Part shown: positions 4,671-34,902 of the stretch, one piece after another
Layout: every line of letters begins with the position of its first letter
Position numbering within the stretch: the stretch's first letter is position 1
NCBI RefSeq assembly: GCF_002865605.1
Contig: NZ_CP025583.1
Location: 910,501 to 974,500, forward strand
Reading direction: 5' to 3'
Source: Paracoccus jeotgali
Lineage (GTDB): Bacteria; Pseudomonadota; Alphaproteobacteria; Rhodobacterales; Rhodobacteraceae
DNA: 64,000 bases
Translations under genes and position numbers: made by a program
Notes under the pieces: model-generated
The model's input: only the letters and a program-made list of their open reading frames with translations
The model's database searches: none
What the model was told of the DNA's origin: nothing

Positions 4671-5610
4671 TCAGATTTTGGCACACTGAACTCGGGTTAA
4701 TACGCCGCTTGCTTTAAAGAAGGCATCACCCTTGCCAGTCAGGGACTCCGCCCCAGGATCGTCCATGATGACTCGGCTTTCGGTAGAGCTTTTGACGCGC
4801 AATGCGATTTGCGCGGGGAGGTTTGACCGCAAGTTGGTGCTGATTACCGAGGCATCTGGCTTCTGGGTGGCAATTATTACGTGAATTCCCGCAGCGCGGG
4901 CTTTCTGAGCAAGACGCTTCAAATGTCCTTCAATTGTCTTTTTTGCGTCCGGCTCTGATGTCAAATCAGCGTATTCGTCTAAAACGATAATCCACCTCGG
5001 AATTCGCTCACCCTCGGCTACATTTGCGTTGAAGTCTCCGATCGTTCTGACCTTCGCGTTCTTGAAACTTGCATAACGGGCCTGCATTTCCTCTACGGCG
5101 CGGAGAAGAATCCCGATTGCATCCTCTTCGTCCCAGCCAATCTCTCCATCGAGATGTTCAGATTCTGAAAGATGCTCGAGCTCGGTTCCCTTCGGATCGA
5201 TTAGCTGCAGCCTTACTTCATCCGGTGTGTAGTGCTGGGTAATACCGGCTAGGATTGTATTGAGGGCTTCAGATTTACCACTCCCGGTGGTGCCGCCGAT
5301 GAGGAGATGCGGCGAGTTGGAGGAGGTGAAGTCGATTTCAACGACGTTTCCGAAGCGATCCTCTCCCAAGGGCACCCTGAGGCCAAACTCAGGACGTTTC
5401 CAGCGCGACCAGAGATCCGATGCTTCCACAAAATACCGGTCCTTGTCCAACTTGGGTACATCAATGGTGACGTAGCCCTTGTCTATGTCGAACCGCATAT
5501 CCTGAGCGGCGTCCAGCTCCAGGGCAAGCTTGAGGGCGTCATGCTGGGCAGACAGCTTGTTCGGTGCCACGCCCTTTCCTGGACGAACCCTGAAGAGAAT
5601 TGATGCGGGG
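4671..5610 (-). pseudogene. FtsK/HerA-like ATPase, 5' end cut off by an IS3 element
   Basis: The frame encodes an FtsK/SpoIIIE-type motor domain with Walker A GGTTGSGKS, the DPKGTELEHL segment and Walker B WIIVLDEYADL, then the FtsK-like IIATQKPDASVI and LPAQIALRVKSSTESR. A GTG at 5570 would give 299 residues. However, the frame stays open upstream to base 5610 with family-like sequence (ILFRVRPGKGVAPNKLSAQH), where it meets the IS terminal repeat. The gene has therefore lost its N-terminal part, and no continuation is visible on the other side of the IS. It is somewhat AT-richer than the core genes. Such standalone FtsK-like ATPases occur in mobile and defence islands; the role here is unknown. 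Confidence 0.7.
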
Positions 5611-10767: not shown

Positions 10768-12086
10768 GCGCAGAATGGTCCTCAACTTCTCTAGGGGCGC
10801 TTATCGACATAAAGCACGGATTTGCGTTCAAAGGAGAACACATAACAGATCAGGAGACACAGAATCTGTTACTGACACCGGGGAATTTTGCCATCGGCGG
10901 CGGATTCCAACCTAGAAAACAAAAGTTCTACTCAGGGAAAATCCCCGATGATTATATTTTAGCGGTTGGCGATCTTATCGTTACAATGACCGACTTAAGC
11001 AAGGAAGCGGATACTCTCGGTTATAGCGCTTTGGTGCCAAAATCATCTTTTTTGATGCTCCACAATCAGCGCATCGGAAAGGTTGTCCCTAAGTCTGAAG
11101 ATGCGCTTCTTGGCTTTTTGCACTGGGTGATGAGAACGCCGGATTACAGGAACGAGATACTTGCCAACTATTCCGGTTCCACGGTCAAGCACACGTCCCC
11201 CACCAAGATCCTGGCTTACAAGTTCAATCTGCCCCCACTCGCTGAACAAAGCGAGATCGCGGCTACACTTGATGCGCTGGAGGACAAGATCAAGCTGAAC
11301 CGCAAGACGGCGGCGACGCTAGAGGGGATGGCGCGGGCACTCTATCGCTCGTGGTTCGTGGATTTCGACCCGGTGCGCGCCCGCGCCGAGGGCCGCACCC
11401 CCGCCCACATGGACCCCGCCACCGCCGCGCTGTTCCCCGACAGCTTCGGCGAGGATGGGCTGCCGGTGGGGTGGACGCTGTCCAGCATCGGAGAGGTAGC
11501 CGAGATCGTCGGTGGCTCGACCCCGTCGACCAAAGAGGACAGATTCTGGGTCGGCGGCGAGCACGCCTGGGCAACGCCGAAGGACTTGTCGAACCTTGGG
11601 CAAGCCTTCCTGTTCGACACCGAGCGGAAAGTGACGTCGGCGGGACTGGCGAAGATCACCTCGGGCCGGTCGCCTGCCGGAACGCTGCTTTTGTCCTCTC
11701 GCGCGCCCATCGGATACCTTGCCTTGGCCACGATGCCGGTTGCGATCAATCAGGGCTTCATCGCAATCCGGGAAACTGAGGCCATTTCCGGGATCGAAGC
11801 CTATTTCTGGTGCGGCGAGAGCATGGACCTAATCCACGCGAACGCCAATGGCTCGACCTTCCAAGAAATCTCGAAGAAGAACTTCCGCCCCCTGACCTAT
11901 GCTCTAGCTCCGGCCGCGATCCGGACCGCCTACAATGAGCAGGCTGGGCTGTGGTTTGCGCGGATGAAGGAACTGATGGACGAAAACCGCACGCTCGCTA
12001 CGCTACGCGACACGCTCCTCCCCCGCCTCATGTCCGGCGCGCTTCGCGTCGGCGCGGCGCGCGCGCTGGTCGAGGAGGTCGTCTGA
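10764..12086 (+). CDS. hsdS: Type I restriction-modification specificity subunit HsdS
   Basis: This encodes 440 residues with two target recognition domains. TRD1 (residues ~1-155) starts SSTSLGALIDIKHGFAFKGE, and TRD2 (~230-400) starts GWTLSSIGEVAEIVGGSTPS. Between them is the conserved helical spacer (LPPLAEQSEIAATLDALEDK and RSWFVDFDPVRARAEGR), repeated in part at the C-terminus (AGLWFARMKELMDENRTLA). Each TRD reads one half of the bipartite target. The first ~500 bases are visibly AT-richer than the rest of the gene and operon, suggesting that TRD1 was swapped in. The gene overlaps hsdM and the DUF4268 gene by a few bases. Confidence 0.93.
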   Translation: MSAEWSSTSLGALIDIKHGFAFKGEHITDQETQNLLLTPGNFAIGGGFQPRKQKFYSGKIPDDYILAVGDLIVTMTDLSKEADTLGYSALVPKSSFLMLHNQRIGKVVPKSEDALLGFLHWVMRTPDYRNEILANYSGSTVKHTSPTKILAYKFNLPPLAEQSEIAATLDALEDKIKLNRKTAATLEGMARALYRSWFVDFDPVRARAEGRTPAHMDPATAALFPDSFGEDGLPVGWTLSSIGEVAEIVGGSTPSTKEDRFWVGGEHAWATPKDLSNLGQAFLFDTERKVTSAGLAKITSGRSPAGTLLLSSRAPIGYLALATMPVAINQGFIAIRETEAISGIEAYFWCGESMDLIHANANGSTFQEISKKNFRPLTYALAPAAIRTAYNEQAGLWFARMKELMDENRTLATLRDTLLPRLMSGALRVGAARALVEEVV

Positions 12087-13225
12087 TGTTCCGCGTCGAT
12101 CGCACAGCCAACCGCATCTCGCGCCTGACCCAGAAGCGCTTCGGCGACCTCGCCCTGCGCGAACGCGACCACCTGCAGGAATGGCTCGTCCATCAGCCCG
12201 ATGCCTTGGGCGAGGACCTGTTGATCCTGCAGAAGGAGTTCGACGGCTTCGACGAGACCCGCGAACGGCTGGACCTGCTGGCACTCGACAAGGCCGGCAA
12301 CCTCGTGGTGATCGAGAACAAGCTGGACGATTCCGGCCGCGACGTGACCTGGCAGGCGTTGAAATACGCTGCCTATGTATCGGGCTTGAAGAAGACCCAG
12401 ATCGCGGAAATCTTCCAACACTACCTTGACCGTCACGGTGGCGGCGGTAGTGCGACCGATATTATCTGCGAGTTCCTCGAAGTCGAGGATTGGAACGAGG
12501 TGGTCCTGAACCCCGGCAGCGGCCAGCGGATCATGTTCGTCGCCGCCAACTTCCGGCGCGAGGTCACGGCAACCGCGCTTTGGCTCATCGGCCGCGGCAT
12601 CGCCGTGCAATGCTTCCGGGTGACGCCCTATGCTTTTGACGACGAGCTCTTCCTCGACCTGCAACAGATCATCCCTCCGCCCGAAGCTGCCGATTACATG
12701 ATCAACGTGGCCTCGAAAGAGGCCGAAGAGACCAGTTCGATGACCGGTCAGAGCCGGCGCCATAACATCCGACGCGAGTTCTGGGAGGTGGCGCTGGAAC
12801 GCTTGCGCACCGATGGCGTCACGATGTTCGCCAATATCAGCCCGGGCAAGGAGAACTGGCTGAATGCCGGGTCCGGGATTGGGGGGTGTCCCTTTATGCT
12901 TCTGTTCCTACAACAAGGGGCAAAGGTGCAGTTGTATATCGGCAAGTCGGATCGAGAGCAGAACAAGCGCATCTTTGACTGGCTTCATGCCAAGAAGGAC
13001 CAGATCGAGGCGGAGTTCGAAGCGCCGCTGCAGTGGCGCCGGCTGGACAAGCTGAAGGCAAGCTTGATCTTGTTTGAGACGAGTTTCGATGGCCTTGACC
13101 GAGAGAACTGGCCCGAGATCGCGGCCTGGATGTCGGAACATATTCGCAAGCTGGAGGCCGCCCTACGTGGTCCGCTGACCGAGCTTGCGCGGAACCCGAC
13201 GCTGCTGAACCGGCAGGACGTGTGA
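12086..13225 (+). CDS. DUF4268 protein with PD-(D/E)XK-like N-terminal domain, restriction operon accessory
   Basis: This encodes 379 residues from ATG 12086, overlapping the hsdS stop. The N-terminal ~130 residues include [22 protein letters not shown], which has the D...(I)ExK signature of the PD-(D/E)XK nuclease fold seen in NucS/DUF91 proteins. The C-terminal ~150 residues ([16 protein letters not shown] to [16 protein letters not shown]) fit DUF4268. It lies inside the operon between hsdS and hsdR and overlaps both, so it is co-expressed and probably works with the type I complex or as a separate nuclease. Function is inferred; no experiment is known to me for this gene. Whether the active site is complete needs alignment. 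Confidence 0.75.
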
Positions 13226-16552: not shown

Positions 16553-17248
16553 ATGAGCCTCAGTCAAACGCAGATTATTCGATCTCTCGGCGAAGCTCTG
16601 GCTTGGTTTGAAAAGGAATTGGCTTGGGGTGCCCCAATGGGCGAGCTTCGACATCTGACCGGACGGATCGGGGAACTCTATGCCGCAATGGTCACTCGAG
16701 GGCAGATGGCCTTGGCGGTAAATCAATCGGGCTATGATGTCGTTTCTGATGAGGGAGAGCGGATCTCCGTCAAGACTTTCACCTCATCTAGTCATATCAA
16801 CTTCAATGCGAGCACTCTAGAACTTGCTGATCGTGTAATGGTCCTTCAAATCGTCATTGACGAGGGCGAACCTTCGATACGAGAATTGTTGGATTGTTCA
16901 GTTGAAGAATTGAAGCCAAAACTGAAGAACCTTGAGACCAATTCTTATCTTCCTGTCCATCTCCTGTTGACACCTAAAGACGGCGCAGCAGTTGTCTTGG
17001 CCGATCTGAAGGTGGTCTCCTCGGGTTTTCGGAGCGGTTTCCGCGTTGATCAACTGGAAAATGGCACAATACAGGTATGGCATGACGGAAAGCTTGAGCC
17101 TCAGGCCAAGCCTGTCCTTCGAAAGCTTGCAGGCGAATTAGGCGTCGAAATCCTGAATTCTGTCGGAAATATAAAAAACACCCGTTCGTTGGGGTCTGAT
17201 GTCCTGAAGGCATTGGCTGATCAACCACCGTTGACTACCTCGTCGTGA
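16553..17248 (+). CDS. DUF6998-like protein downstream of the type I system
   Basis: This encodes 231 residues from ATG 16553, with AGGAG upstream. The N-terminal half (LTGRIGELYAAMVTRGQMAL ... GYDVVSDEGERISVKTFTSS) matches DUF6998 proteins that are often encoded beside type I restriction operons in Alphaproteobacteria. The pattern E...YDVV...ERISVKT resembles a PD-(D/E)XK core (Glu, Asp, then Lys after a beta hairpin), so a nuclease-related fold is possible. The C-terminal half is not recognised. It is 190 bases after hsdR on the same strand and may belong to the same transcription unit. It is AT-richer than hsdR. Role unknown. Confidence 0.55.
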   Translation: MSLSQTQIIRSLGEALAWFEKELAWGAPMGELRHLTGRIGELYAAMVTRGQMALAVNQSGYDVVSDEGERISVKTFTSSSHINFNASTLELADRVMVLQIVIDEGEPSIRELLDCSVEELKPKLKNLETNSYLPVHLLLTPKDGAAVVLADLKVVSSGFRSGFRVDQLENGTIQVWHDGKLEPQAKPVLRKLAGELGVEILNSVGNIKNTRSLGSDVLKALADQPPLTTSS

Positions 17249-17474: not shown

Positions 17475-18973
17475 CTACCCGCGCCATTTCCAAGGCAGCA
17501 GGTCATCGACCTTTGTGATCTTGTAATCAGGGATACGGGCCAGGGTGTCGGCGAGCCAGGCATGGGGATCGATGGCGTTGAGCTTGGCTGTTTCGATCAG
17601 GGTGTAGGCGATGGCGGCGGCCTTTCCACCTGCCTCGGAACCGACGAATAGGTAGTTTTTCCGCCCGAGGGCGATGGCGCGCATGCCGCGTTCGGCGGCG
17701 TTGTTGTCGAGCTCGAGGATGCCGTTGTCGAGGTAGGGGCGCAGGCGTTCCATCCTGGTGAGGGCGTATCGGATGGCGGCCGCTAGCGGGGATTTCCCCG
17801 AGATCGTGGTGAGTTGCATGGCCAGCCAGACTTCCAGGTCATCGAAGACCGGGGCGGCATGTGCCTTACGGAGTTCGGCGCGGCGGTCCGGTGGCGAACC
17901 TCGGGCTTCCTTCTCGACGGCATAGAGCCGGGCGATGCGGCCGATGGCCTCCTCAGCGATCGGCGAACCTTGCGATCGGTGGATGTCCACGAACTTGCGC
18001 CTGACATGGGCCATGCAGGCGACCTCGCGGATGGCGCCGGAACGGTAGAGATCCTCGAACCCGGCATAGCCGTCGGCATGCATCCAGCCGCGGAAACGGG
18101 CCAGATGATCCTTGGGGTGCTGACCCTTGCGGTCGCCCGAGAAGCGATACCATGCGGCAGGCGGAGCATCGCCATCCCATGGGCGCTCATCGCGGGCATA
18201 GGTCCAGAGCCGGGCCGTCTGGGTCTTGCCGGTGCCGGGCGCCAGCATCCGCACCGGCGTATCGTCGGCGAAGATCGCCTCGGCCGACAGGACATGGCGC
18301 CCGATGGCCTCGGCCAGTGGCTCCAGAAGGGTGGTGGTCTTGCCGACCCAGTCGGCCAGGGTCGATCGGTCGAGATCGAGCCCTTCGCGGCCGAAGATCT
18401 GGCTCTGGCGATAGAGGGGGAGATGGTCGGCATACTTGCTGACCAGCACATGGGCCAGCAGACCCGGCCCGGGGCGACCGCGCTCGATCGGGCGCGACGG
18501 CAGCGGGGCCTGGACGAAGCGTTCGCAGCAAGCGCAGGTCAGCCGGGGCGGACAATCCGGTTCACGATGAAGCGCCCAGGAACATACTCCAGCTCTTCCG
18601 TGACGTCCTCGCCGATCCGGCGCAGGCGACCGCCGCAATCGGCACAGGCATCGGCGCCGGGCATCAGTTCCACCTCCATCCGGGGGATATGATCCGGGAT
18701 CGGACGGCGCTTGGGTTTGCCCTTCTCCTCGATGTCCGGCAGACGCATCCGCGCCGTCATCGCGGCGGCCGCGATCTCGCTGGCCTCAAGAGCCAACTGA
18801 AGCTGTTCTGCCGTCTCCGAGGACGCGCCGAACCGGTGTGCCCGGTGCCCGGCCAGTTGGTGCCGCAGCTTCTCGATCAGGATCGCCTGCGCCTTCACCT
18901 CGGCCAGAAGCCGCGCGGTGAAGCTGCGCAACTCCTCGGGATCTTCCGGCAGGGTCAGGGTCTGATCGAGCAT
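17475..18973 (-). pseudogene. IS66 transposase TnpC, frameshifted
   Basis: The gene reads from [20 protein letters not shown] at 18973 through a leucine-rich helical region and a zinc-finger-like CADCGGRLRRIGEDV to VNRIVRP. It then hits a stop because one base is missing near 18546-18556. In the next frame it continues LTCACCERFVQAPLPSRPIE with the DDE IS66 core (AIFADDTPVRML, GWMHADGYAGFEDL, DNGILELDNNAAERGMRAIA) to the TAG stop at 17475. With the lost base restored it would be ~500 residues, normal for TnpC. Confidence 0.85.
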
Positions 18974-19033
18974 GCAAGGAGTTTATCCCACGGGATTCCT
19001 TATGGGAATCATTCTCTTGTGGCCCCCCCCTGA

Positions 19034-19379
19034 TTATCCCGCTGCCAAGGGCCGCCACGTTCGCTCCGGGGCACGCCAGTCGATCCCTTCCAGGAGCATC
19101 GACAACTGCGCCGGTGTCAGCGCCACCTTCCCCTCCTTGGCCGAGGGCCAGACGAACCGGCCCCGCTCCAGCCGCTTCATGAACATGCAGGCCCCTGGCC
19201 ATCCACCAGATGACCTTCACCAGATCACCGCGACGGCCGCGGAAGACGAAGAGATGCCCGCCGAAAGGATCCTGCTTCAGCACCGCCTCGGCCTGCGCCG
19301 CCAAGGAAGCAAAGCCCTTGCGCATGTCGGTGACCCCGGCAGCCAGCCAGACCCGCGTGTTGGCCGGAACCGGGATCAC
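19034..19379 (-). pseudogene. IS66 accessory protein TnpB, frameshifted
   Basis: It starts [20 protein letters not shown] and follows the TnpB pattern to DLVKVIWW. At about 19195-19212 the sequence lacks two bases relative to the family, and the frame leaves the expected [12 protein letters not shown]. The other frame continues the true C-terminus ([20 protein letters not shown] ... [10 protein letters not shown]) and stops at 19034-19036. Its start overlaps the tnpA stop by four bases. Confidence 0.85.
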
Positions 19380-19771
19380 GCCGAAAGTCCCCGGATCAGC
19401 CGCGCCAGCGCCTCAGGATCATAGCTGCCGCTGATCCGCATCCGGTGACCGCCCGCCAGCTCGATCTCGATGTGGTTCTCGGCGGCAGGTGCCGCCGGAG
19501 TAGACCTGGTCTCCGCGACGATCTCTACGGGCAGAAACCGCGCCTCCTCTGCTGGGGGCGCAACCGAGGTGGGGTCCGGCGCATAACGGGGATCGCGCAG
19601 CCACTTGAAGATCAGGTTCGCGTTCACCGCGTAGCGCCGCGCCACCTGAGCCACGGAAACGCCCGGCGCCGCCGTCTGGAAACAGATCGAACGCTTCTCC
19701 TCATCCGTCCAAAGTCGCTTCGTCCGACGCGCCACGCCATCACCATAGTGTCCACTATCAATGGTGGACAC
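19376..19771 (-). CDS. IS66 family protein TnpA (helix-turn-helix)
   Basis: This encodes 131 residues. The N-terminal helix-turn-helix ([20 protein letters not shown], then [20 protein letters not shown]) is the standard IS66 OrfA/TnpA. The C-terminal [20 protein letters not shown] is also typical. The gene appears complete and overlaps tnpB. It is required with TnpB and TnpC for IS66 transposition, but both of those are broken here. Confidence 0.85.
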
Positions 19772-21371
19772 TATCCGCCTCTTTCACCACGCGGCAGGGC
19801 GGTCAGGCCGGACGCTTACTTTGTCGGGGGTCACTGGAGTGATCGACATGGATATATTGAGCGTCATTCGACGTTGGGCACTTCGGGACAAGTTACCGAT
19901 CCGCGAGATTTCACGGCGGGCTGTCGCGCAATACTATCAGGCGTTACCTGCGTGCCGGGATCGTGGAGCCCAAGTTCAAGGCACCATCGAGGCCGAGCAA
20001 GCTTGATCCTTACGCAGAGAAGCTGTCGGGCTGGTTGTTGGCGCAGCAGCGCAAGCCGCGCAAAGAGCGACGAACGGCGAAGCAGATGCACGCTGATCTG
20101 GTTCAACTTGGATTTGATGGCTCCTACGAGCGGGTCTCGGCCTTTGTCCGCGCCTGGAGATCGGACCGGGCGCGCGCGCAGAACACCACAGACCGCGGGA
20201 CATTCGTGCCACTGGTGTTCAAGCCGGGCGAGGCATTCCAATTTGATTGGAGCGAGGACTACGCAATCATCGGGAGTGAACGGATCAAGCTGCAGGTCGC
20301 ACACATCAAGCTGTCGCACAGCCGCGCGTTCTTGGTCGAGGCGTATTTGCTACAGACACATGAGATGCTGTTCGATGCGCACTGGCATGCGTTCAGGGTC
20401 TTCGAAGGCGTGCCGGGCCGCGGGATCTACGACAATATGCGCAAGGCGGTAGACCGCGTGGGCGCTGGCAAGAAGCGCGACGTGAACGCGCGCTTCATGG
20501 CGATGACCAGCCACTACGTGTTCGAACCTGACTTCTGCAATCCGGCGGCGGGATGGGAGAAGGGCCAGGTCGAGAAGAACGTCCGCGATGCGCGCAGCCG
20601 GATGTGGCAGGTAATGCCATCCTTCCCTGATCTCAACGCGCTGAACCGGTGGCTGGAAGAGAGGTGCAAGGCGCTATGGACCGAGACCGGACACGGCCGC
20701 TTGCCAGGCAGCATCGCTGAGATCTGGGAGGCTGAGAAATCGTCGCTGATGCCTTTGCCCACGGCGTTCGATGGCTATGTCGAGCAAAATAAGCGGGTGT
20801 CACCGACCTGCCTCATCACGTTTGATCGCAATCGCTACTCTGTGCCCGCCAGTTTTGCGAACCGGCCCGTCAGCCTGCACATCTACCCCGAACGGCTGGT
20901 TGTCGTTGCCGAAGGGCAGGTCGTCTGTGAGCACCGGCGCATCATTGAAAGGTCGCACCGGCAACCGGGCCGCGTCATCTATGACTGGCGCCATTACCTC
21001 GCCGTGGTCCAGCGCAAGCCGGGCGCGCTTCGCAATGGCGCCCCGTTTGTCGAAATGCCGGAGGGCTTTCGTGAGTTGCAGAATCAGATGCTGCGCAGGC
21101 CCGGCCGCGATCGGGAGATGGTCGACGTCCTGTCATTGGTGCTGCATCACGACGAACAGGCCGTGCTTTGCGCGGTGGACATGGCACTGAAGGCCGGCGT
21201 GCCGAGCAAGACCCACGTGCTGAACCTGCTGCACAGGCTGGTGAGCGGCACGTCGGGCGAAAAGCCGGACGTGATGCCGCCTCCGGCCTTGATGTGAGGT
21301 GCTCCCCGGAAACTGGACACTGACGTAAGCTCGAGTTTTCTGTCTGCTGATCTTCGCCACGAAGGAGATCG

Positions 21372-21668
21372 ATGATGACGAAACGAAAGCAGCATGCGCC
21401 TGCATTTAAGGCCAAGGTGGCACTTGAGGCGCTGAAAGGCGAAGAAACCGTGTCGGAACTGGCGAGCCGGTTCGGCGTGCATCCGACAATGATCAATCAA
21501 TGGAAGCGCGCGCTGTTGGATGGCGCGTCCGGTGTTTTCGAGCGCGGCAGCCGCAAGGCACCGGTGATTGATGAAGATCAGGTCCGGGACCTGCACGCCA
21601 AGATCGGGGAGCTGGCGGTGGCCAATTCTTTTTTGGAAAGAAAGCTCAAGCCCTGGGGCGGGACGTGA
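21372..21668 (+). CDS. IS3-family transposase OrfA
   Basis: This encodes 98 residues from ATG 21372 (a second ATG at 21375), preceded by GAAGGAG. The helix-turn-helix KGEETVSELASRFGVHPTMI and the following coiled region (VRDLHAKIGELAVANSFLER) are typical of OrfA. It overlaps OrfB by four bases. A run TTTTTTGGAAAGAAAGC before the overlap could be the site of -1 ribosomal frameshifting that makes the OrfAB transposase, as known for IS3 elements. Confidence 0.88.
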   Translation: MMTKRKQHAPAFKAKVALEALKGEETVSELASRFGVHPTMINQWKRALLDGASGVFERGSRKAPVIDEDQVRDLHAKIGELAVANSFLERKLKPWGGT

Positions 21669-22528
21669 GGCGCGGCATGATCGAGCGCGACCATCCGGAC
21701 TTGTCGATCGGCCAGCAATGCGCGCTGCTGTCGATTCCGCGGTCGTCGTTCTACTACGCACCGCAGGGTGAGACGGAGCAGAACTTGGCGCTGATGCGGT
21801 TGATCGATGGACAGTTCCTTGAAACGCCGTTCTTCGGCGTTCGCCAGATGACGTGGCACCTGCGCAATCAGGGTCATGCCGTGAACGAAAAGCGCATCCG
21901 CCGGCTCATGCGCCTGATGGGGCTGATGCCAATCTATCAGAAGCCCAGCACCAGCAGGCCGGCGAAGGGGCACAAGACCTATCCTTATCTGCTGCGCGGG
22001 CTGCGTGTGGGCAGACCAAACCAGGTCTGGTGCGTGGATATCACCTACCTGCCAATGCGCCGCGGCTTTCTCTATCTGGTGGCGATCATGGACTGGCACA
22101 CCCGGATGGTGCTGTCCTGGCGGATCTCGAACACGCTGGACGCCGACTTCTGCGTCGAGGCGCTGAACGAGGCTATCTATCGGTTCGGACCGCCGGACAT
22201 CATGAACAGCGATCAAGGATCTCAGTTCACGTCGTTTGCTTGGATAGACCGCTTGCGCCGGTCGGGTATCCGCATCTCGATGGATGGCAAGGGGCGCTAC
22301 CTGGACAACATCTTTATTGAACGCCTCTGGCGCACGCTAAAATACGAGTGCGTCTATCTGCATGCCTGGGAGACCGGGTCCCACGCCCGCGCCGGCGTCC
22401 GCAAATGGATCGAGTTTTACAATCACCGCCGCCCGCACAAAGCCCTTGGCGGCCGACCACCAGCAGTGGTCTACTCACTGCAAATCGAAGCAACCCAACC
22501 CGATCAGCAGGAGCAAATCAGAGCTTAA
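21665..22528 (+). CDS. IS3-family transposase OrfB (DDE integrase core)
   Basis: This frame gives 287 residues, probably expressed mainly as a frameshift fusion with OrfA. It has an N-terminal HTH_21 region (FFGVRQMTWHLRNQGHAVNE) and an rve core with VWCVDITYLPM (first Asp), IMNSDQGSQFTS (second Asp) and LDNIFIERLWRTLKYE (Glu). It ends EFYNHRRPHKALGGRPP, as usual. No lesions are seen. Confidence 0.9.
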   Translation: MRRGMIERDHPDLSIGQQCALLSIPRSSFYYAPQGETEQNLALMRLIDGQFLETPFFGVRQMTWHLRNQGHAVNEKRIRRLMRLMGLMPIYQKPSTSRPAKGHKTYPYLLRGLRVGRPNQVWCVDITYLPMRRGFLYLVAIMDWHTRMVLSWRISNTLDADFCVEALNEAIYRFGPPDIMNSDQGSQFTSFAWIDRLRRSGIRISMDGKGRYLDNIFIERLWRTLKYECVYLHAWETGSHARAGVRKWIEFYNHRRPHKALGGRPPAVVYSLQIEATQPDQQEQIRA

Positions 22529-22637
22529 AAAGCGCCAGATACTGTCCAAGCAATGGGGAGCACCTCAATGCTGAGCAAGGAGCCCGAAGCGAACGTCGCA
22601 CGCTACGATGGGCTGCGCACGTCCGGAGGCAAACGCC

Positions 22638-23429
22638 ATGCGTCATGATCCCGCCGGAGCTGCCATCGTCATCATGCTCCGCAGTCTGAAGATGCCAGGC
22701 ATGGCCCAAGCAGTTCACGACCTCATGGAACAAGGTGCGCCTGCATTCGACGCGGCGATCCCGATCCTGTCGCAGCTGCTGAAGGCCGAAATGGCTGAGC
22801 GTGAAGTGCGGTCGATCTCCTATCACATGAAAGCCGCGCGCTTCCCGGCCCACAAGGACCTTTCTGGCTTTGACTTTGCGGCCAGCGAGGTCAACGAGGC
22901 CCTTGTGCGGCAACTTCATCGATGCGAGTTCTTGGATGCCGCAGAGAACGTGGTCCTGATTGGTGGGCCCGGCACCGGGAAGAGCCATGTCGCCACGGCC
23001 CTCGGTGTTCACGCCATCCAGCATCACCGCAAACGTGTGCGCTTCTTCTCGACTGTCGAACTGGTCAACGCGCTGGAACAGGAAAAGGCACTGGGAAGGG
23101 CCGGCAAGATCGCCGAGGCGTTGGTGAAAACCGAATTGGTGATCCTCGACGAGCTGGGATACCTGCCGTTTAGCGCCGCGGGCGGCGCGCTCGGGTTCCA
23201 CCTGCTCAGCAAACTCTACGAGCGCACCAGCGTCGTGATCACCACAAACCTGAGCTTCAGCGAATGGGCCAGCGTCTTTGGCGACGCCAAGATGACCACA
23301 GCGCTCCTCGATCGCCTTACCCACCGTTGCCACATTCTGGAGACCGGAAACGACAGCTACCGCTTCAAAGCCAGCTCGGAGACCGCGAAAAGAAAGAGAA
23401 AGGAGGCACAGACATTGACCACGTCATGA
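22638..23429 (+). CDS. istB: IS21 helper ATPase IstB
   Basis: This encodes 263 residues from ATG 22638, overlapping the istA stop. It is an AAA+ ATPase with Walker [15 protein letters not shown], Walker [14 protein letters not shown] and sensor [14 protein letters not shown]. IstB works with IstA in IS21 transposition. It is intact, but IstA is broken, so the element cannot move by itself. Confidence 0.92.
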
Positions 23430-23505
23430 ACACACCGACATACTGACAGGCGGGTCAAATCTCGATGACAATGCTGGGTCAGTTCTCAGTGACATCCAAC
23501 AAACG

Positions 23506-25317
23506 CTAAAAACGTCTTGCGATGTCCGTCGCCTGCTTCATACTCTCCGCCGCCTTGGTGTTATCGCCATCCCTCCAGAAGACAGTATCGTCCAGCAGTG
23601 ACTGCTCCGTCTGCGGCGGGACGGTGATAATTATGATACCGAGGCCATAGTAGGAGTTGTAGTCAATAGACGATAGGACTGCGGTCTTTAGGTGATCAGA
23701 TAGCGTGGAATTGCCAATTCGGTGACGAATTATCCCAATATAATCCTCGAGCGACTTGCCAAGAATGCGGGCTTCCCGATCGACACCAACGACAAATTTA
23801 TCCCCAACTTTTCTCGGCGAAATCTTATCTAGAGCAAGTGCGCGATCAGCATCGGCTTGATTATCCGATACACCGATTAATATCTTTCCAGCGCGGGCAG
23901 GCCCATTGTTCGCAATGGCGCATATCGTCTGGATAATGCGGTCGACAAGCCCTTCGTTGAATTCTCTTTTTTCTCCTAGAGCTACCAAGCCCTGCTTCAG
24001 CTCATAGTATGATAACTCCGTAGAGGATCTGCGTATGGCGGAATCGATATCTACGGACGCGTGATTCGAGTATATCTCGGCCGACTGGTCTTGGTTCAGA
24101 AAATGAGGGCCGATGATCCCTTTGATCGTGTTGACATTAGTCCTCCTCTCTTCAGGCGAGGTAGCCCGACGTGACGTTTCGATCCTATTAGTCAGATTTA
24201 CTAACTGCCTCTTGAGCGCCGGATAATCACTGATCTTCTTCTTCTCCGCGATAATCATCTCATGAAATGCCACGAAGATCACCGAAAAAACAGCGGGGAA
24301 AGCGTTCGTGTTCCGTCTCTCGAATATTATGTTGCGGAGCTTCTCCGGACTTCCTGTGTTGCAAACTTCTTCAATCTGCTGTATGCAGAATTTTATCTCA
24401 TCCATTAGCTTTTCGGCGCCGTAAACCTTGAGCGCGTCAAGAACCGAGTTCGAACGCTCGGTTCCACTTTCATATATGTTATCAAGTTCGGCTTTAGACC
24501 GTTCGATCATTGACCCCGTGACGATGCAGGCTGCTATATCCGCAATGCACTGTTCATCCATGCTGTCCCGAAGATGCGTTGATCGAAGGATTCCCTGGTC
24601 AACCCAGAAGACTTCCTCCGCGCGCACCAAGTAACCGTGTTTGGTCATCGGCAGATCGATCGAGATACTCGGCATCTTCGCGAGAGGAAGCGATGCTTCG
24701 GACTCGTCGCCCCGGACAGTGCAAGCAATTGTCCTCACCAATTCGGAGAATTCGTTTTGAATTCCCGCCTGACGCCGCTCTTGATCGCTCAGCCGGTGAC
24801 CATAAGAGTTGATGCGATCGAATACATCATCAATCTCGCGCTCCGACGCCTTCCTCATGATGGAAATTGCGAGAGAATAATCCAAAAGCACGCCGACTTC
24901 TCTCGCTCCAATAACGTCGTCCTGCGACAACGGCTCAAACAGATTTCCCTCTCTACGCGCTTGGGCAGTCGGAAATTTGGAGACGTCAAAATACTTGCCG
25001 TCCACGGTCGGGAAGGACCCCTCGATGAACGAGATAATGGCATTCAGGCGCTGCAACCCATCAATGATTTCATACCGGTTCGGATCGTCGTCGCGTTCCG
25101 CGACCAGAATGGCCGGGATTGGATATTTCTTCAGGATGGATTCGACAAGCTTTTGCTTCTCTTCCAGCGTCCAAACCAGTTTGCGCTGATACCTCCGATT
25201 AACAAAAAGCCGATCGTCATTGTGCCAACCATACACTGACTGGACTGGGGTAGGTTGAGCAGCAACGTCGGCCAAAGCGTGATCTCCTGGTTGTTTCAGA
25301 GTTTCTCGCCTGTGCAT
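23506..25317 (-). CDS. DUF262 / AlbA_2 fusion protein, putative defence protein
   Basis: This encodes 603 residues. The N-terminal DUF262 (GmrS-like) domain has RRYQRKLVW (41-49), the DGLQR motif (86-90, in place of DGQQR) and FDRINSYGHRLSDQERRQ (166-183). A middle helical region follows. The C-terminal ~170 residues fit the Schlafen AlbA_2 domain: YYELKQGLV (437-445), TICAIANN (464-471), GKILIGVSD (477-485) and FWRDGDNTKAAE (580-591). The HNH DUF1524 nuclease found with DUF262 in GmrSD-type type IV restriction enzymes is absent, so AlbA_2 seems to replace it. The gene is clearly AT-richer than the chromosome, suggesting transfer. A role in anti-phage defence is inference from domains and island context. 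Confidence 0.65.
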   Translation of the reverse strand: MHRRETLKQPGDHALADVAAQPTPVQSVYGWHNDDRLFVNRRYQRKLVWTLEEKQKLVESILKKYPIPAILVAERDDDPNRYEIIDGLQRLNAIISFIEGSFPTVDGKYFDVSKFPTAQARREGNLFEPLSQDDVIGAREVGVLLDYSLAISIMRKASEREIDDVFDRINSYGHRLSDQERRQAGIQNEFSELVRTIACTVRGDESEASLPLAKMPSISIDLPMTKHGYLVRAEEVFWVDQGILRSTHLRDSMDEQCIADIAACIVTGSMIERSKAELDNIYESGTERSNSVLDALKVYGAEKLMDEIKFCIQQIEEVCNTGSPEKLRNIIFERRNTNAFPAVFSVIFVAFHEMIIAEKKKISDYPALKRQLVNLTNRIETSRRATSPEERRTNVNTIKGIIGPHFLNQDQSAEIYSNHASVDIDSAIRRSSTELSYYELKQGLVALGEKREFNEGLVDRIIQTICAIANNGPARAGKILIGVSDNQADADRALALDKISPRKVGDKFVVGVDREARILGKSLEDYIGIIRHRIGNSTLSDHLKTAVLSSIDYNSYYGLGIIIITVPPQTEQSLLDDTVFWRDGDNTKAAESMKQATDIARRF

Positions 25318-25715
25318 CAGTTTTCGTCAAGCTTGCTGCCGCCACTCGGTTCAGCTGCTTCCGCCTCCGCGTCGATCTCCCGCCGAAGATGTGGCGTCAG
25401 CGACGAATGTCCACATTGGCTCGATGCAGCGGTTGCCATGCCGCACCGCCGTCAGGCTGCTTACCGCCCGTTGCAGCCGTCATGTCGGTGCGCAAACACC
25501 AGTTGTTCTGATGCATCCATTGCTGAGCCCTCCATCCCTCGGCTCGATGGGATGAGCCGCTGAAACGAACTCCTGCGCGCTAACAAGAAGAGTGTGGCGC
25601 CGCTCATATCGCCGTTCTTCGGCCGGTTCGTGGCGCGGTATAAACGATACCCCATCCACACGGTTCACCCTTCGCGCAAGTTGCGGCACAAGGTGGGACC
25701 TGAAAGGACCTGCCG
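25318..25715. other. Non-coding or decayed stretch between the DUF262 and TniQ genes
   Basis: Short open frames exist on both strands but none has a recognisable protein pattern or a good ribosome site. The starts of the two flanking divergent genes leave room here for their promoters. Confidence 0.35.
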
Positions 25716-27560
25716 ATGCCGCAAATGCGCCCTGTGCCACGCGAAACCCTCCCGTCGTTCCTGTCTCGGCTGGCAGCATCAAGGGGAGTGGACACGCCGG
25801 AATTCGCCCACGATCTCGGAGGGGCGTTCAAAAGGTTTCTCAGAGGCGACCCAGAGGTCGTGAACAGCTTGGCCAACTGGGCAGGGCTGCGAGACCGCGA
25901 CGTGAAGGAGATGCTCTCCTGGACCGGCATGCCGATAGGAAAGGTCCGTCTGCAGTTCCGGGGTGAGCCTGTCGGTTCTCGTGCATTGCTCAACCCTGTC
26001 GTTGAAGGTTGCCCCACGTGCTTGCGGGAAGACGCACAAGGAAATCTTTCCGAACCGCTAACTCGCATGGCCCTGAGAGGTGACTGGCAGATGCGCGAAG
26101 TATCTGTCTGCCGGCGCCATCGTAAGTTGCTCGTTCCGCTCTGGACGGAGACGCGGCCCGTCCAGAGGTTCGATGCGCAGGGTCAGTTGTCGAGAATCCT
26201 CGACAGGATCATGGCCGGTGACATGGATGGAGACAGTGTCGAGCTGTCCCGATTCGATGACTGGCTGGACGATCGGCTGAGCAGCACAACCGATCCGACC
26301 TGGCTGGCGGCGCAAGCGACGGCTGCAAGTGCATCATTCTGCCGGTTGTTCGGACAGGGGCTGTTGCCCCATGCAGGTTCCGACGCCTCTATTCGACACC
26401 GGCACGAAGCGGCGGCCGCTGGCTTTTCGATCGTAGAACATGGCCCAGAGGCGATCGTGGCGCATCTTGTGGCGTCCTCAACCGGCGCAGCCACTGTATC
26501 CGACCCCGTTCGCCAGGCACATGGCAAGCTGATCTTCGCGCTGGAATCCCATTTATTGGACGAACCGTCATTTGACGTTTTCCGAGATATTCTCCGGGAG
26601 GCAGTGTTGGAGATATGGCCTGTTGCCGCGGGAGAAAAGGTGTTGGGCGCAGTTCTGAATGGACGCAGGCTACACTCCGTCAGTTCGGCCGCAGCAGAAG
26701 CAGGAATTGACCCGGTCCGCCTGCGTCCGATGCTGATCGAAGCTGGTGCATTGACGGCTGATGATCCCCGGCCTGACTCACGTGCCGTCTTCGATGCCAA
26801 GGGATACGCGCAACTTCTGGCGAATATCCCATCGCTGGTGACCACGAAAGCAATGTGTGCGCTACTCGGCACGACGAGGGTAGAGCTGGATGCGCTGAAG
26901 AAGGCGGGAGTTCTCTCCCCGCGCACGGCGCTGGCTGGGGCACGGCGGAAGTGGCTTCCAGATGACGGGTTGTCGCTTCTCGAAGAGTTGCGGAAATGTG
27001 CTGTCGATGTCTCGACGCCGGTCGATGCTCGGGACTGGATCGCCATCCAGTCCGCACAGGCTAGGTCGGGAGTCCGTGTCGCAGACATCATCAACGGCAT
27101 CCGCTCGGGTGATATCGAAGTGCGGCATGTTCAGCCAAGCGCAGGATATCATGGCTATCAGGTCTCAGCGGCCGCGATATCTTCTTACGGCGATCGTATT
27201 CAGGCGCGCGAAAGCCTGTCGGGCGAGCTTTCCCTGGCCGAGTTTGGTAGAAGCGTCGGCATACGAGAGATGGAACGGCTCATGGCGCTGATCGAAGCAG
27301 GTGAGATTCCGGCGAGACACGTGATCCATCCCACCACCCGCCGTCCGCAGTGGCGGGTCACAAAATCGGCAGTCGAGACCTTCCGCCGCCGATTCCTGAC
27401 CCCCAGCATAGTCCAGAACGAGTTCGCCTTGTCGATCAATGCCGCGCGGGCAATCCTTCGTGCGGGCAGCATTGCCCCCTATGAACCGAAAGGGCGGAAG
27501 CTCGGAGATCTCTACCTCCGAGACGATGCGTTGCCCCTGATCAGCCGCGCATCATCATAA
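25716..27560 (+). CDS. TniQ-family protein, orphan
   Basis: This encodes 614 residues. The N-terminal ~150 residues fit TniQ: ETLPSFLSRLAASRGVD, WAGLRDRDVKEML and a zinc site formed by CPTC (Cys99, Cys102) and CRRH (Cys132, His135). In Tn7- and Tn5053-type transposons TniQ/TnsD proteins choose the target site. The rest holds several helix-turn-helix-like repeats (e.g. VSSAAAEAGIDPVRLRPMLI, LAEFGRSVGIREMERLMALI), plausible for DNA recognition. No TniA/TnsB transposase or TniB/TnsC ATPase is nearby. It ends 123 bases from the 3' end of a tRNA-Arg gene, so it could be part of a transposon directed to that tRNA. A host-domesticated role is the alternative. Confidence 0.65.
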   Translation: MPQMRPVPRETLPSFLSRLAASRGVDTPEFAHDLGGAFKRFLRGDPEVVNSLANWAGLRDRDVKEMLSWTGMPIGKVRLQFRGEPVGSRALLNPVVEGCPTCLREDAQGNLSEPLTRMALRGDWQMREVSVCRRHRKLLVPLWTETRPVQRFDAQGQLSRILDRIMAGDMDGDSVELSRFDDWLDDRLSSTTDPTWLAAQATAASASFCRLFGQGLLPHAGSDASIRHRHEAAAAGFSIVEHGPEAIVAHLVASSTGAATVSDPVRQAHGKLIFALESHLLDEPSFDVFRDILREAVLEIWPVAAGEKVLGAVLNGRRLHSVSSAAAEAGIDPVRLRPMLIEAGALTADDPRPDSRAVFDAKGYAQLLANIPSLVTTKAMCALLGTTRVELDALKKAGVLSPRTALAGARRKWLPDDGLSLLEELRKCAVDVSTPVDARDWIAIQSAQARSGVRVADIINGIRSGDIEVRHVQPSAGYHGYQVSAAAISSYGDRIQARESLSGELSLAEFGRSVGIREMERLMALIEAGEIPARHVIHPTTRRPQWRVTKSAVETFRRRFLTPSIVQNEFALSINAARAILRAGSIAPYEPKGRKLGDLYLRDDALPLISRASS

Positions 27561-27683: not shown

Positions 27684-27760
27684 TGGTGACCCCGGCAGGA
27701 TTTGAACCTGCAACCTGCCCCTTAGGAGGGGGCTGCTCTATCCAGTTGAGCCACGGGGCC
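27684..27760 (-). tRNA. tRNA-Arg (anticodon CCT)
   Basis: This is a 77-base cloverleaf on the reverse strand. The acceptor stem GGCCCCG pairs with CGGGGTC, followed by A and an encoded CCA. The D-arm contains GGCTCAACTGGATAGAGC, the anticodon loop CTCCTAA gives CCT, and the T-arm contains GGTTCAAATCC. tRNA-Arg genes are common island integration sites, and the accessory region begins at its 3' side. Confidence 0.95.
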
Positions 27761-32274: not shown

Positions 32275-34902
32275 TCAGGCGGTCAGCCCCTTCAGCTCAT
32301 AGATCAGGTCGAGCGCCTCGCGCGGGGACAGGCTATCGGGCTGGATCTCGCGCAGGCGGTCATCGACGGGGCTGGGGGCCGTGCGGGCGGGGGCCGGGGC
32401 AGGCGGCGCGGCGCGGAACAGCGGCAGGTCGTCGATGATCGCGGCCGGACGCGCCGCGCCCTCTCGCTCGCCGGATTCGAGGCTGGTCAGGATGTCGCGG
32501 GCGCGGGCGACGGCCGCGTCGGGCAGACCGGCCAGCCGGGCCACCTGAACGCCATAGGACCGGTCGGCCGCGCCCCGGATCACCTCGTGCAGGAAAATCA
32601 CGTCGCCTTCCCATTCGCGGACCGCGACGGTGGCGTTCTCGACCCCGTCCAGCCGGGCGGCGAGGGCGGTCAGCTCGTGGTAATGCGTCGCGAACAGCGC
32701 CCGGCAGCGGTTGACAGCGTGCAGATGCTCCATCACCGCCCAGGCGATGGACAGCCCGTCCCAGGTCGCGGTGCCGCGCCCGATCTCGTCCAGGATCACC
32801 AGCGCGCGGTCGTCGGCCTGATTGAGGATCGCCGCCGTCTCGACCATCTCGACCATGAAGGTCGAACGTCCCCGCGCCAGATCGTCGGCGGCACCCACCC
32901 GGCTGAAGAGCTGGCTGACCAGCCCCAGATGCGCCCGCGTTGCCGGCACGAAGCTGCCCGCCTGCGCGAGAATGGCGATCAGCGCGTTCTGGCGCAGAAA
33001 GGTCGATTTCCCGGCCATGTTCGGCCCGGTCAGCAGCCAGATTGCGGGCGTCTCGCCCTCGGTCAGGGCGCAGTCATTGGCGACGAAGCTTTGCGATTTG
33101 CGGCGCAGCGCGGCCTCGACCACCGGATGGCGGCCGCCTTCGATCAGAAAGGCGCGGCTGTCGTCGATGACGGGCCGCGTCCAGTCCTGCTCCGCCGCCA
33201 GATCGCCCAGCGCGGCCGCCAGGTCGATCTCGGCCAGCGCGCGCGCCGCCTGTCCGACCGGCCCTGCCTGCGCCAGCACCGCGTCGCGCAGCCGGGCGAA
33301 GATGCCGCGTTCGATCTCCAGCGCGCGGTCGCGGGCGTTCAGGATGCGGGTTTCCAGCTCCGACAGCTCGACCGTGGTGAAGCGGATCTGGTTGGCGGTG
33401 GTCTGGCGGTGGATGAAGATTTGCGACAGCGGCGGGGCCAGCATCTTTTCGGCGTGAGTCGCGGTGGTCTCGATGAAATAGCCCAGAACGTTGTTGTGCT
33501 TGATCTTCAGGCTGCCGACGCCGCTGCGGGCGACGTAATCGGCCTGCATCTGCGCGATCACGCCGCGTCCCTCGTCGCGCAGGCGGCGGGTCTCGTCCAG
33601 ATCCGCGTCAAAGCCGCTGGCGGTGAAGCCGCCATCGCGGGCCAGCAGCGGCGGTTCGGCCACCAGCGCGTCGTCGAGCAGGTCGATCAGCGCCTCGTGC
33701 CCGGACAACGCGCCGACCGCCTCGGCCAGCAGCGGGGGCGCGTCATCGCCCAGCAGCGCCGCGACCGCCAGCCCCTGCGTCAGCCCGGCGCGGATCGCCG
33801 ACAGATCGCGCGGCCCGCCGCGTTCCAGCGCCAGCCGCGACACAGCGCGGTCCATGTCCGGCACCCGCGCCAGCGCCTCGCGCAGGCGCGCGGTCAGCCC
33901 GGTATCGGCCAGCAGCCAGCCCACCGCGTCATGCCGCGCCCGGATCACGCCCATATCGCGCGAGGGCGCGCTGATCCGCCGTTCCAGCAGCCTTGCGCCC
34001 GCCGCCGTCACGCTGCGGTCGATGGCGGCCAGCAGCGAGCCCTCGCGCCCGCCCGACAGCGCCTGCGTCAGTTCCAGATTACGCCGGGTGGCCGCGTCGA
34101 TCTGCATCGCGCCCTGCGCATCCTCGCGCAGCGGCGGGCGGATCAGCGGCATCTGCGCCTTTTGCGTCATGTCGAGATAGGCCGCCAGCGCCCCCATCGC
34201 CGCCAGTTCGGCCCGCGAAAAGCTGCCGAAGCCGTCCAGCGTCTCGACCCGGAACAGCGCCGCCAACCGCCGCGCGGCCGCGGCGGAATCGAAACTCGCC
34301 GCCGGCAGTTCGGTCAGCACGCTGCCTTGATCGGTGGCCAGATCGTCAAGGCCGCTGCCCTCGACGGCCAGCAATTCGCGCGGCGCAATGCGGGCCAGTT
34401 CCGGGGCCAGCCGCGACGACGGGCAGTTCATCACCCGCAGCGTCCCGGTCGAGATATCGACCCAGGCCAGCGCCGCGTCGTCGCGCACCGTGGCGTAGGC
34501 GGCGAGAAAGTTGTGCCGCCGCGCTTCCAGCAGCGATTCTTCGGTCAGCGTGCCGGGCGTGACCAGCCGCACGACATCGCGGGCGACGACCGATTTGCTG
34601 CCCCGCTTGCGCGCCTCGGCCGGGTCTTCCATCTGCTCGGCGATGGCTACGCGAAACCCCTTGCGGATCAGCGTCAGCAGATAGCTTTCGGCGGCGTGGA
34701 CGGGCACCCCGCACATCGGGATCGGCTGGCCCTGATGGGTGCCGCGCCGGGTCAGCGCGATATCCAGCGCCGCCGCCGCCGCCACCGCGTCGTCGAAGAA
34801 CATCTCGTAGAAATCGCCCATGCGATAGAACAGCAGCGCGCCCGGATTGGCCTCGCGGATCGCCAGATACTGCGCCATCATCGGGGTCGGCTGGTCGGTC
34901 AT
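32275..34902 (-). CDS. mutS: DNA mismatch repair protein MutS
   Basis: This encodes 875 residues. The N-terminal mismatch-binding domain has GDFYEMF (phenylalanine wedge motif), and the connector, lever and clamp domains follow. The C-terminal ABC ATPase has WLLTGPNMAGKSTFLRQ (Walker A, near residue 625), ALVILDEIGRGT (Walker B) and FATHYHELT. MutS recognises mispairs and recruits MutL. The length fits the family. It begins 69 bases from the mtaB stop on the same strand, so the two may be co-transcribed. Confidence 0.95.
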   Translation of the reverse strand: MTDQPTPMMAQYLAIREANPGALLFYRMGDFYEMFFDDAVAAAAALDIALTRRGTHQGQPIPMCGVPVHAAESYLLTLIRKGFRVAIAEQMEDPAEARKRGSKSVVARDVVRLVTPGTLTEESLLEARRHNFLAAYATVRDDAALAWVDISTGTLRVMNCPSSRLAPELARIAPRELLAVEGSGLDDLATDQGSVLTELPAASFDSAAAARRLAALFRVETLDGFGSFSRAELAAMGALAAYLDMTQKAQMPLIRPPLREDAQGAMQIDAATRRNLELTQALSGGREGSLLAAIDRSVTAAGARLLERRISAPSRDMGVIRARHDAVGWLLADTGLTARLREALARVPDMDRAVSRLALERGGPRDLSAIRAGLTQGLAVAALLGDDAPPLLAEAVGALSGHEALIDLLDDALVAEPPLLARDGGFTASGFDADLDETRRLRDEGRGVIAQMQADYVARSGVGSLKIKHNNVLGYFIETTATHAEKMLAPPLSQIFIHRQTTANQIRFTTVELSELETRILNARDRALEIERGIFARLRDAVLAQAGPVGQAARALAEIDLAAALGDLAAEQDWTRPVIDDSRAFLIEGGRHPVVEAALRRKSQSFVANDCALTEGETPAIWLLTGPNMAGKSTFLRQNALIAILAQAGSFVPATRAHLGLVSQLFSRVGAADDLARGRSTFMVEMVETAAILNQADDRALVILDEIGRGTATWDGLSIAWAVMEHLHAVNRCRALFATHYHELTALAARLDGVENATVAVREWEGDVIFLHEVIRGAADRSYGVQVARLAGLPDAAVARARDILTSLESGEREGAARPAAIIDDLPLFRAAPPAPAPARTAPSPVDDRLREIQPDSLSPREALDLIYELKGLTA

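Follow-up and report, generated by a model that had tools for sequence, protein, structure and literature searches.

The 64,000-nucleotide stretch of the Paracoccus jeotgali genome analysed here (the window; positions 910,501 to 974,500 of contig NZ_CP025583.1) carries on its minus strand a gene whose product joins an N-terminal DUF262 domain to a C-terminal SLFN_AlbA_2 domain, and which, on balance, is probably a defence protein that acts by cleaving RNA. A preliminary description of this DNA had proposed a candidate defence protein with these two domains and a replaced nuclease half, all of which stands, while its reading of AlbA_2 as a mere nucleic-acid binder has been revised, the DGLQR motif is no oddity, the architecture is widespread and the argument from the surrounding island is weak.

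The gene lies in an open reading frame (ORF) of 603 codons that starts with ATG and is open at 23506-25317 (minus strand), just as it had been described, and the motifs DGLQR, GKILIGVSD and FWRDGDNT can all be read in its translation (residue numbers below are those of this ORF). Both domains are present beyond chance. The Pfam family GmrSD_N/DUF262 (PF03235), an NTPase-type (nucleoside triphosphatase) sensor domain of ParB/Srx-like fold, matches residues 36-184 (24766..25212) with an E value of 1.3e-22 and 81.4 bits, against a gathering cut-off of 33.2. SLFN_AlbA_2 (PF04326) matches the full protein with an E value of 9.1e-8 and 33.1 bits (gathering cut-off 25.3), and the C-terminal piece alone with 3.7e-9 and 37.6 bits (residues 436-590; 23548..24012). 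This domain is also matched by the 21 C-terminal pieces of the family that were scanned at E values up to 1, down to 25% identity to the window protein, and by one (L040, 6.9e-6) of two distant full-length homologues scanned at 0.01, the other (L037) giving no match. The replacement of the nuclease half is confirmed by the same scans, in which no DUF1524 or HNH family was listed for the protein down to an E value of 10 (a range in which the HMMER filters drop most matches above 0.1), nor for 10 window neighbours at 0.01.

The two domains are joined by a mainly helical middle region, with approximate limits 24073..24705 in the AlphaFold2 secondary structure. In comparisons made with VIA-align, the predicted fold of the C-terminus matches SAMD9 and the Schlafens, with identities of 14-19% in those rows, and the C-lobe/AlbA_2 fold of the Schlafens appears to be present in the predicted model; BrxU superposes on residues 3-391 of the model with a root-mean-square deviation of 11.2. 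With Foldseek, BrxU was the sole match under 1e-3 and its overall superposition was poor (template modelling score 0.19, 17.5 A), so that the fold comparison rests on VIA-align.

The residues that would make the C-terminal domain an enzyme are conserved. Conservation was counted in 155 aligned homologues (148 close and 7 distant rows), from which the broken or short frames L011, L018, L019, L023, L033, L034 and L035 and the copies of the window gene itself (L001, L036) had been left out. The protein contains the E-x4-E...D triad of the Schlafens, composed of E434 and E439 (24001..24018; E420 and E425 in the numbering of the 589-residue protein discussed below) and D485 (23863..23865; D471), the last lying within GKILIGVSD. 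E434 is a glutamate in the 148 close and the 7 distant rows; E439 is a glutamate in the 148 close rows and in three distant ones, the other four having aspartate (in total E 151, D 4); D485 is an aspartate in 145 close rows and an asparagine in three, and in the distant rows an aspartate in five and a glutamate in two (in total D 150, N 3, E 2). The equivalent residues of SAMD9L and SLFN13 have been reported to be required for translation block or RNA cleavage (PMC5862951, PMC11221667). The assignment of the C-terminus to AlbA_2 is therefore maintained, although an RNase-like domain of Schlafen/SAMD9 type whose acidic triad is intact fits better than the nucleic-acid binder that had been suggested.

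The N-terminal domain also keeps its motifs. NRRYQRKLVW (residues 40-49; 25171..25200) is invariant in the 148 close rows, and the seven distant ones keep all of it except the second R and the V. DGLQR (residues 86-90; 25048..25062) is taken, from the match of the motifs, as the equivalent of D98-G99-Q100-Q101-R102 of BrxU. Its D, Q and R are conserved in the 155 homologues, while its third position holds L in 148 of them, M in six and V in the remaining one, which departs from the DGQQR reported for nearly 100% of GmrSD sequences (PMC4619093). The idea that the leucine is peculiar to this gene is rejected, because the substitution is family-wide, because L (5), I (1) or V (2) occupies this position in the 8 of 10 NsnA loci in which our script found the motif, and because a DUF262 protein of a Vibrio phage has DGLQR as well (that of phage RB49 has DGKQR). 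The motif thus marks branches of DUF262. In BrxU, the substitutions Q101A and R102A abolish hydrolysis, cleavage of DNA and resistance to phage (PMC8565348), and the residues matching Q101 and R102 are kept in the window protein. That the third residue is dispensable was also considered and dropped, since modelling cited in the same paper puts Q100 at the gamma-phosphate, together with D98, Q101 and R102 (PMC8565348). Both phage proteins are shorter than the window protein, that of RB49 (L058:2450-2968) having 172 amino acids and that of the Vibrio phage (L059:2860-3882) 340; the RB49 gene has alt and a gene for a DNA methyltransferase in its vicinity, and such phage proteins might be decoys or superinfection factors.

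The fusion appears to be old, and its parts have travelled together. The identities of the N-terminal and C-terminal parts correlate with a coefficient of 0.91 among 124 sequences less than 85% identical and of 0.77 among the 117 close ones, a value as high being reached in none of 999 permutations, which argues that both domains were inherited together over a long time. At least 1945 proteins match at an E value of 1e-3 (8000 candidates scored). Among the best 120 of these, DUF262 is annotated in all 120 and both Pfam domains in 109 (precomputed annotation), and 111 have lengths of 588-594 amino acids; the architecture is therefore widespread and not unique. The preliminary description could match the combination to no described system, and no description of a DUF262-Schlafen/AlbA_2 fusion was found, by title, abstract or passages, in the open-access literature searched. 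The closest homologue among the matches listed, from Cereibacter sphaeroides, is 93% identical. Twenty-two named loci with identities of 42-63% belong to Pseudomonadota, Cyanobacteriota, Actinomycetota, Verrucomicrobiota and Kiritimatiellota, and 12 further loci come from viral contigs; a script found the reading frame broken in 6 of these 34 (L002-L035), namely L011 (which shows a stop), L018 (a split match), L023, L033, L034 and L035. Among phage records, 86 match and none covers 80% of the query. Carriage is rare: with its own genome counted each time, the gene is found in 2 of 101 relatives (E value 1e-30) and, at 1e-40, in two of the 385 class genomes and two of the 398 phylum genomes. 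A 23-row tree, which leaves 10 of its 20 inner branches without resolution and in which 5 rows have no group and 3 have very long branches, fits an old and patchy family. Rapid transfer across phyla is unsupported, since the tree requires only the minimum of four phylum changes over all groups, although Pseudomonadota alone needs three, and free hopping between phyla is not what it shows.

These features suggest a sensor and an effector combined in a defence protein encoded by one gene. The DUF262 domain would bind and hydrolyse nucleoside triphosphates (NTP) and, together with the helical middle region, would detect invasion, most likely through some feature of foreign DNA, as GmrSD, BrxU and SspE do. 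NTP turnover would then alter the shape of the protein or its dimer state, so that the C-terminal Schlafen/SAMD9-type domains become paired or uncovered and cut RNA (with transfer RNA, tRNA, as a first guess) through the putative metal-binding triad E434/E439/D485; translation would stop, and the infected cell would yield no phage. Pairing may be needed because each AlbA_2 domain is a single lobe, unlike the two-lobed N-domains of the Schlafens. The coupling of DUF262 sensing to an NTP-driven pairing or freeing of these lobes is proposed by analogy with BrxU, whose dimers become monomers on NTP binding (PMC8565348), and with SspE, in which modified DNA triggers an NTPase activity that switches the effector domain (PMC10952713).

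Among known defence families, the best match in PADLOC is NsnA (PDLC03877; E value 4.3e-32, 109.8 bits, residues 6-377), followed by PD-T4-2_A (4.4e-19). Two NsnA proteins from NsnA-NsnB operons score 480 and 459 bits against 110 for the window protein, and in 398 genomes the NsnA profile gives 51 matches at 1e-30 or better, one of which is the window gene. Both kinds of protein share DUF262, a helical region and a hydrophobic third residue in DG[LIV]QR. They differ in that the NsnA profile has 385 positions and AlbA_2 is missing from the two NsnA proteins that were scanned with Pfam; moreover, NsnA is accompanied by a separate ATPase, NsnB (AAA_15/AAA_21-DUF3696), encoded directly downstream in the three loci scanned (E values 1.8e-120, 3.9e-120 and 5e-111), whereas the window protein stands alone with an effector-like domain in cis and no NsnB was found among the matches listed for 9 window neighbours. 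Judged by sequence, its sensor is a relative of NsnA with a different effector arrangement. One NsnA protein (L074:1480-3207, minus strand) has an N-terminal extension of about 180 amino acids, and two more NsnA open frames have 671 and 684 codons. NsnABC are presumably the gene names of Menshen. According to a review, Menshen combines a DUF262 gene and a predicted nuclease of the OLD type (PMC10952713).

Other relatives share one half. GmrSD and BrxU carry a C-terminal DUF1524 HNH nuclease and DGQQR, where the window protein has SLFN_AlbA_2 and DGLQR; the phosphorothioate-sensing SspE and DndI also have another C-terminus, and among the window neighbours scanned (the genome was not searched for modification genes) the only phosphorothioation gene was an SspH-like fragment (4671-5570). 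The additional domains given for the GmrSD family in the main text of Machnicka 2015 are DUF4268, DUF4357 and DNA_binding_1, with no AlbA there (PMC4619093). SAMD9, SAMD9L and the Schlafens resemble the window protein in their C-terminal fold and acidic triad, and SAMD9 likewise couples AlbA_2 to an NTPase (PMC5445408), although this is a P-loop STAND NTPase instead of a ParB/Srx-like one; the spacing of the glutamates is 12 in SAMD9L and 5 in the window protein. In bacteria, a 2025 preprint by Taboada et al. on Schlafens in anti-phage defence, cited in PMC12839542, points, going by its title, to a defence protein of bacteria that has an RNase domain of Schlafen type, and Schlafen RNases with histidine-kinase and winged helix-turn-helix parts appear in a BREX survey (PMC12839542). 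A survey of HEPN domains describes fusions of ParB or DUF262 to HEPN, in which the same kind of sensor is joined to an RNase of another fold, and in its account Schlafen is fused to HEPN, not to DUF262 (PMC3710099).

More distant relatives of the gene are carried by plasmids, both whole and broken. In 144 of 72,556 plasmid records a single place spans 80% or more of the query, and the 40 listed are 31-41% identical. On a Salmonella IncFIA/IncFII plasmid, a copy (590 amino acids, with 31.5% identity to P0001) has pemIK on one side and parM on the other, and a MOBH plasmid has a further one within its transfer region. With the Salmonella copy as megablast query, 803 of 5426 RefSeq E. coli genomes match, 105 of them with at least 80% in one place, and 862 of the 890 matching places are on plasmids. 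Intact copies exist in E. coli, but 740 of the 847 matching records, mostly plasmids, have no place that covers 80% of the gene. Among 30 records taken at even steps, 4 contain the whole gene, 14 stop at one base, 8 start with a 9-base overlap of that base and 4 hold other pieces; a recurrent break between the sensor and the AlbA_2 parts is thus where 22 of the 30 end or begin. In the two records that were opened (L065, L066), the break has an IS1 remnant and resistance genes next to it, and the annotation calls the pieces GmrSD-domain and RNA-binding-domain proteins. The label of the E. coli plasmid homologues, GmrSD restriction endonuclease domain protein, may mislead. C-terminal-only pieces on plasmids of Lactobacillaceae were considered as an independent gene and rejected, the annotated ORFs of two records being short remnants. 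A bolder proposal, which we put forward tentatively and hold to be rather doubtful, is that the protein is a single-chain bacterial counterpart of SAMD9, in which foreign DNA is read by a restriction-type NTPase sensor that activates a Schlafen-type tRNase in its own chain, linking type IV sensors to translation shut-off, and that an insertion tied to an IS1-bordered resistance region split the halves of the gene in most of the E. coli IncFII plasmids that carry pieces.

Several observations weigh against a defence protein that cleaves RNA. Its main weaknesses are a missing phenotype and a lack of defence-gene enrichment: no report of phage-defence activity, or of any assay, was found for the DUF262-AlbA_2 family in the open-access literature searched, and no enrichment was seen around 12 other loci of the family in comparison with 12 control regions of the same contigs. 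At an E value of 1e-10, 7 PADLOC models with one member each were matched among the 119 ORFs (35,016 residues) of these loci, and 43 models among the 108 ORFs (42,276 residues) of the controls, mad3 having three members and PD-T4-6 accounting for 20 of the 25 control models listed, with one member each (probably one protein); ORFs were taken by a greedy length rule, and the copies at L011 and L018 are broken. The equivalent of BrxU Q100 is replaced by L, M or V everywhere, so that NTP hydrolysis may be altered, Q100 not being among the BrxU mutants named (PMC8565348). SLFN5 is discussed as a protein that binds tRNA without cleaving it (PMC11221667). When solved structures were searched with sequence profiles, AlbA_2 had no convincing match (best 0.1) and DUF262 a weak one, BrxU (0.0027), which stood under an HNH protein and among histones; the fold argument therefore depends on predicted models, with middling Z scores. 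The identities, of 53-63% in 21 of the 22 named loci of several phyla and 42% in the other, are high for a defence gene, and the 23-row tree requires only the minimum of four phylum changes.

Four other explanations were weighed. Closest to the preliminary description, and unlikely, is a restriction factor resembling type IV enzymes, whose AlbA_2 domain would serve only to hold nucleic acid, while anything cut, by AlbA_2 or DUF262, would be DNA; SAMD9 AlbA_2 has been crystallised with DNA (according to the title of 7ksp), AlbA_2 is called a putative DNA-binding domain (PMC5445408) and the N-terminal relatives GmrSD, BrxU and SspE act on DNA (PMC10952713), but against it stand the conservation of the triad in nearly all of the 155 sequences, the need for the matching residues of SAMD9L and SLFN13 in translation block or RNA cleavage and the lack of any detected HNH/DUF1524 domain. 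Somewhat less probable still is that the protein serves the mobile element that carries it, stabilising islands and plasmids or acting in their exclusion or regulation, with ParB-like and AlbA_2 domains that act on plasmid DNA or RNA and not in phage defence. Its position between pemIK and parM on an IncFII plasmid, in a MOBH transfer region and beside insertion sequences in the window would agree with such a role, as would the lack of defence-gene enrichment; against it, the gene is also found on large contigs (e.g., of 5.28 and 3.98 Mb), the 25 neighbour Pfam families listed, out of 126, include no transfer gene, and the 740 E. coli records without an 80%-covering copy imply that those plasmids persist without the gene.

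An NsnA-like sensor with a host-encoded or unlinked partner, and with AlbA_2 as a docking module only, would agree with the match to NsnA and with the pairing of NsnA with NsnB; we hold it to be improbable, as NsnB is lacking among the matches listed for the 9 window neighbours, both NsnA proteins scanned are without AlbA_2, and no partner gene recurs in the 12 other loci, where the highest recurrence of a Pfam family is 2 of 119 neighbour ORFs. Least probable of all, and hardly to be expected, is an RNase that has a housekeeping or stress function, takes no part in defence and is kept in rare strains: the strong conservation of the family and a tree that agrees with descent inside phyla would suit it, but the gene is carried by two genomes in each of the sets of 101, 385 and 398 and lies in a low-GC (guanine plus cytosine) island.

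Several details of the gene and its surroundings complete this account. The first 14 codons of the ORF are probably untranslated, and the protein would have 589 amino acids (coding sequence 23506..25275, minus strand), since most of the homologue loci fetched start with M-A-[ED]-L, homologues are of about this length, and a TTG stands at codon 15 (25275), preceded, 8 bases upstream, by AGGAG (25284..25288), a probable ribosome-binding site. A promoter and terminator scan of 23300-25760 gave scores inside the shuffle range and no minus-strand match. The gene had been said to be AT-rich, and its GC content is indeed 50.5%, with 58% at third codon positions, compared with 67.8% for the DNA to the right of the tRNA gene mentioned below and with 89% at third positions in a comparison ORF (32275-34902, taken for mutS by eye). 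In the host genome (3.30 Mb, 3 contigs), DUF262 and AlbA_2 genes are found only here at an E value of 0.001.

The presence of Vsr, a cytosine methyltransferase, a type I system (HsdM, HsdS, HsdR) and TniQ in the same island was confirmed by profiles, together with IstB, while the use of this setting as an argument for defence is weak in view of the neighbourhood statistics of the 12 other loci, which show neither enrichment nor a recurrent partner. Between the type I locus and the fusion gene there are some 6 kb of insertion-sequence genes (17475-23429), of which IstB was named by Pfam and the rest by eye; the fusion gene is flanked by an adjacent IS21 istB gene (22608-23429, Pfam) and by a divergent tniQ-like gene (25716-27560, plus strand, 614 amino acids). 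The latter lies next to a tRNA-Arg(CCT) gene (27684-27760, minus strand), near which the low-GC stretch ends at the GC boundary of the island; a search for a repeat of the 3' end of this tRNA (an attachment site), with up to 2 mismatches, found only the tRNA itself in the window and the genome. Elsewhere in the island, the FtsK/HerA-type ORF at 4671-5570 (minus strand) matches the C-terminal part of SspH (2.7e-60), has a transposase-like ORF nearby (by eye) and is probably the remnant of a larger defence gene. A DUF4268 protein (11951-13225, plus strand; PADLOC candidate PDC-S11, 3.6e-167) is encoded between hsdS and hsdR, the listed ORF overlapping both, and a DUF6998 protein (16553-17248, plus strand), with no PADLOC match at 0.001, directly follows hsdR.

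Both halves of the protein and its general logic were already known, and what would be new is the fusion of DUF262 to a Schlafen-type domain. DUF262 sensors have been found wired to an HNH nuclease in cis (GmrSD, BrxU and SspE) and to a partner ATPase on a chain of its own (NsnA-NsnB), and published accounts also have them fused to HEPN domains; if the proposal is true, the same sensor module would here be wired to a translation-stopping effector related to the human antiviral proteins SAMD9 and the Schlafens. Because one gene holds both a clear acidic triad and an NTPase motif, sensing and killing should be separable by single alanine mutants, and through such a separation what DUF262 domains recognise would become directly testable.
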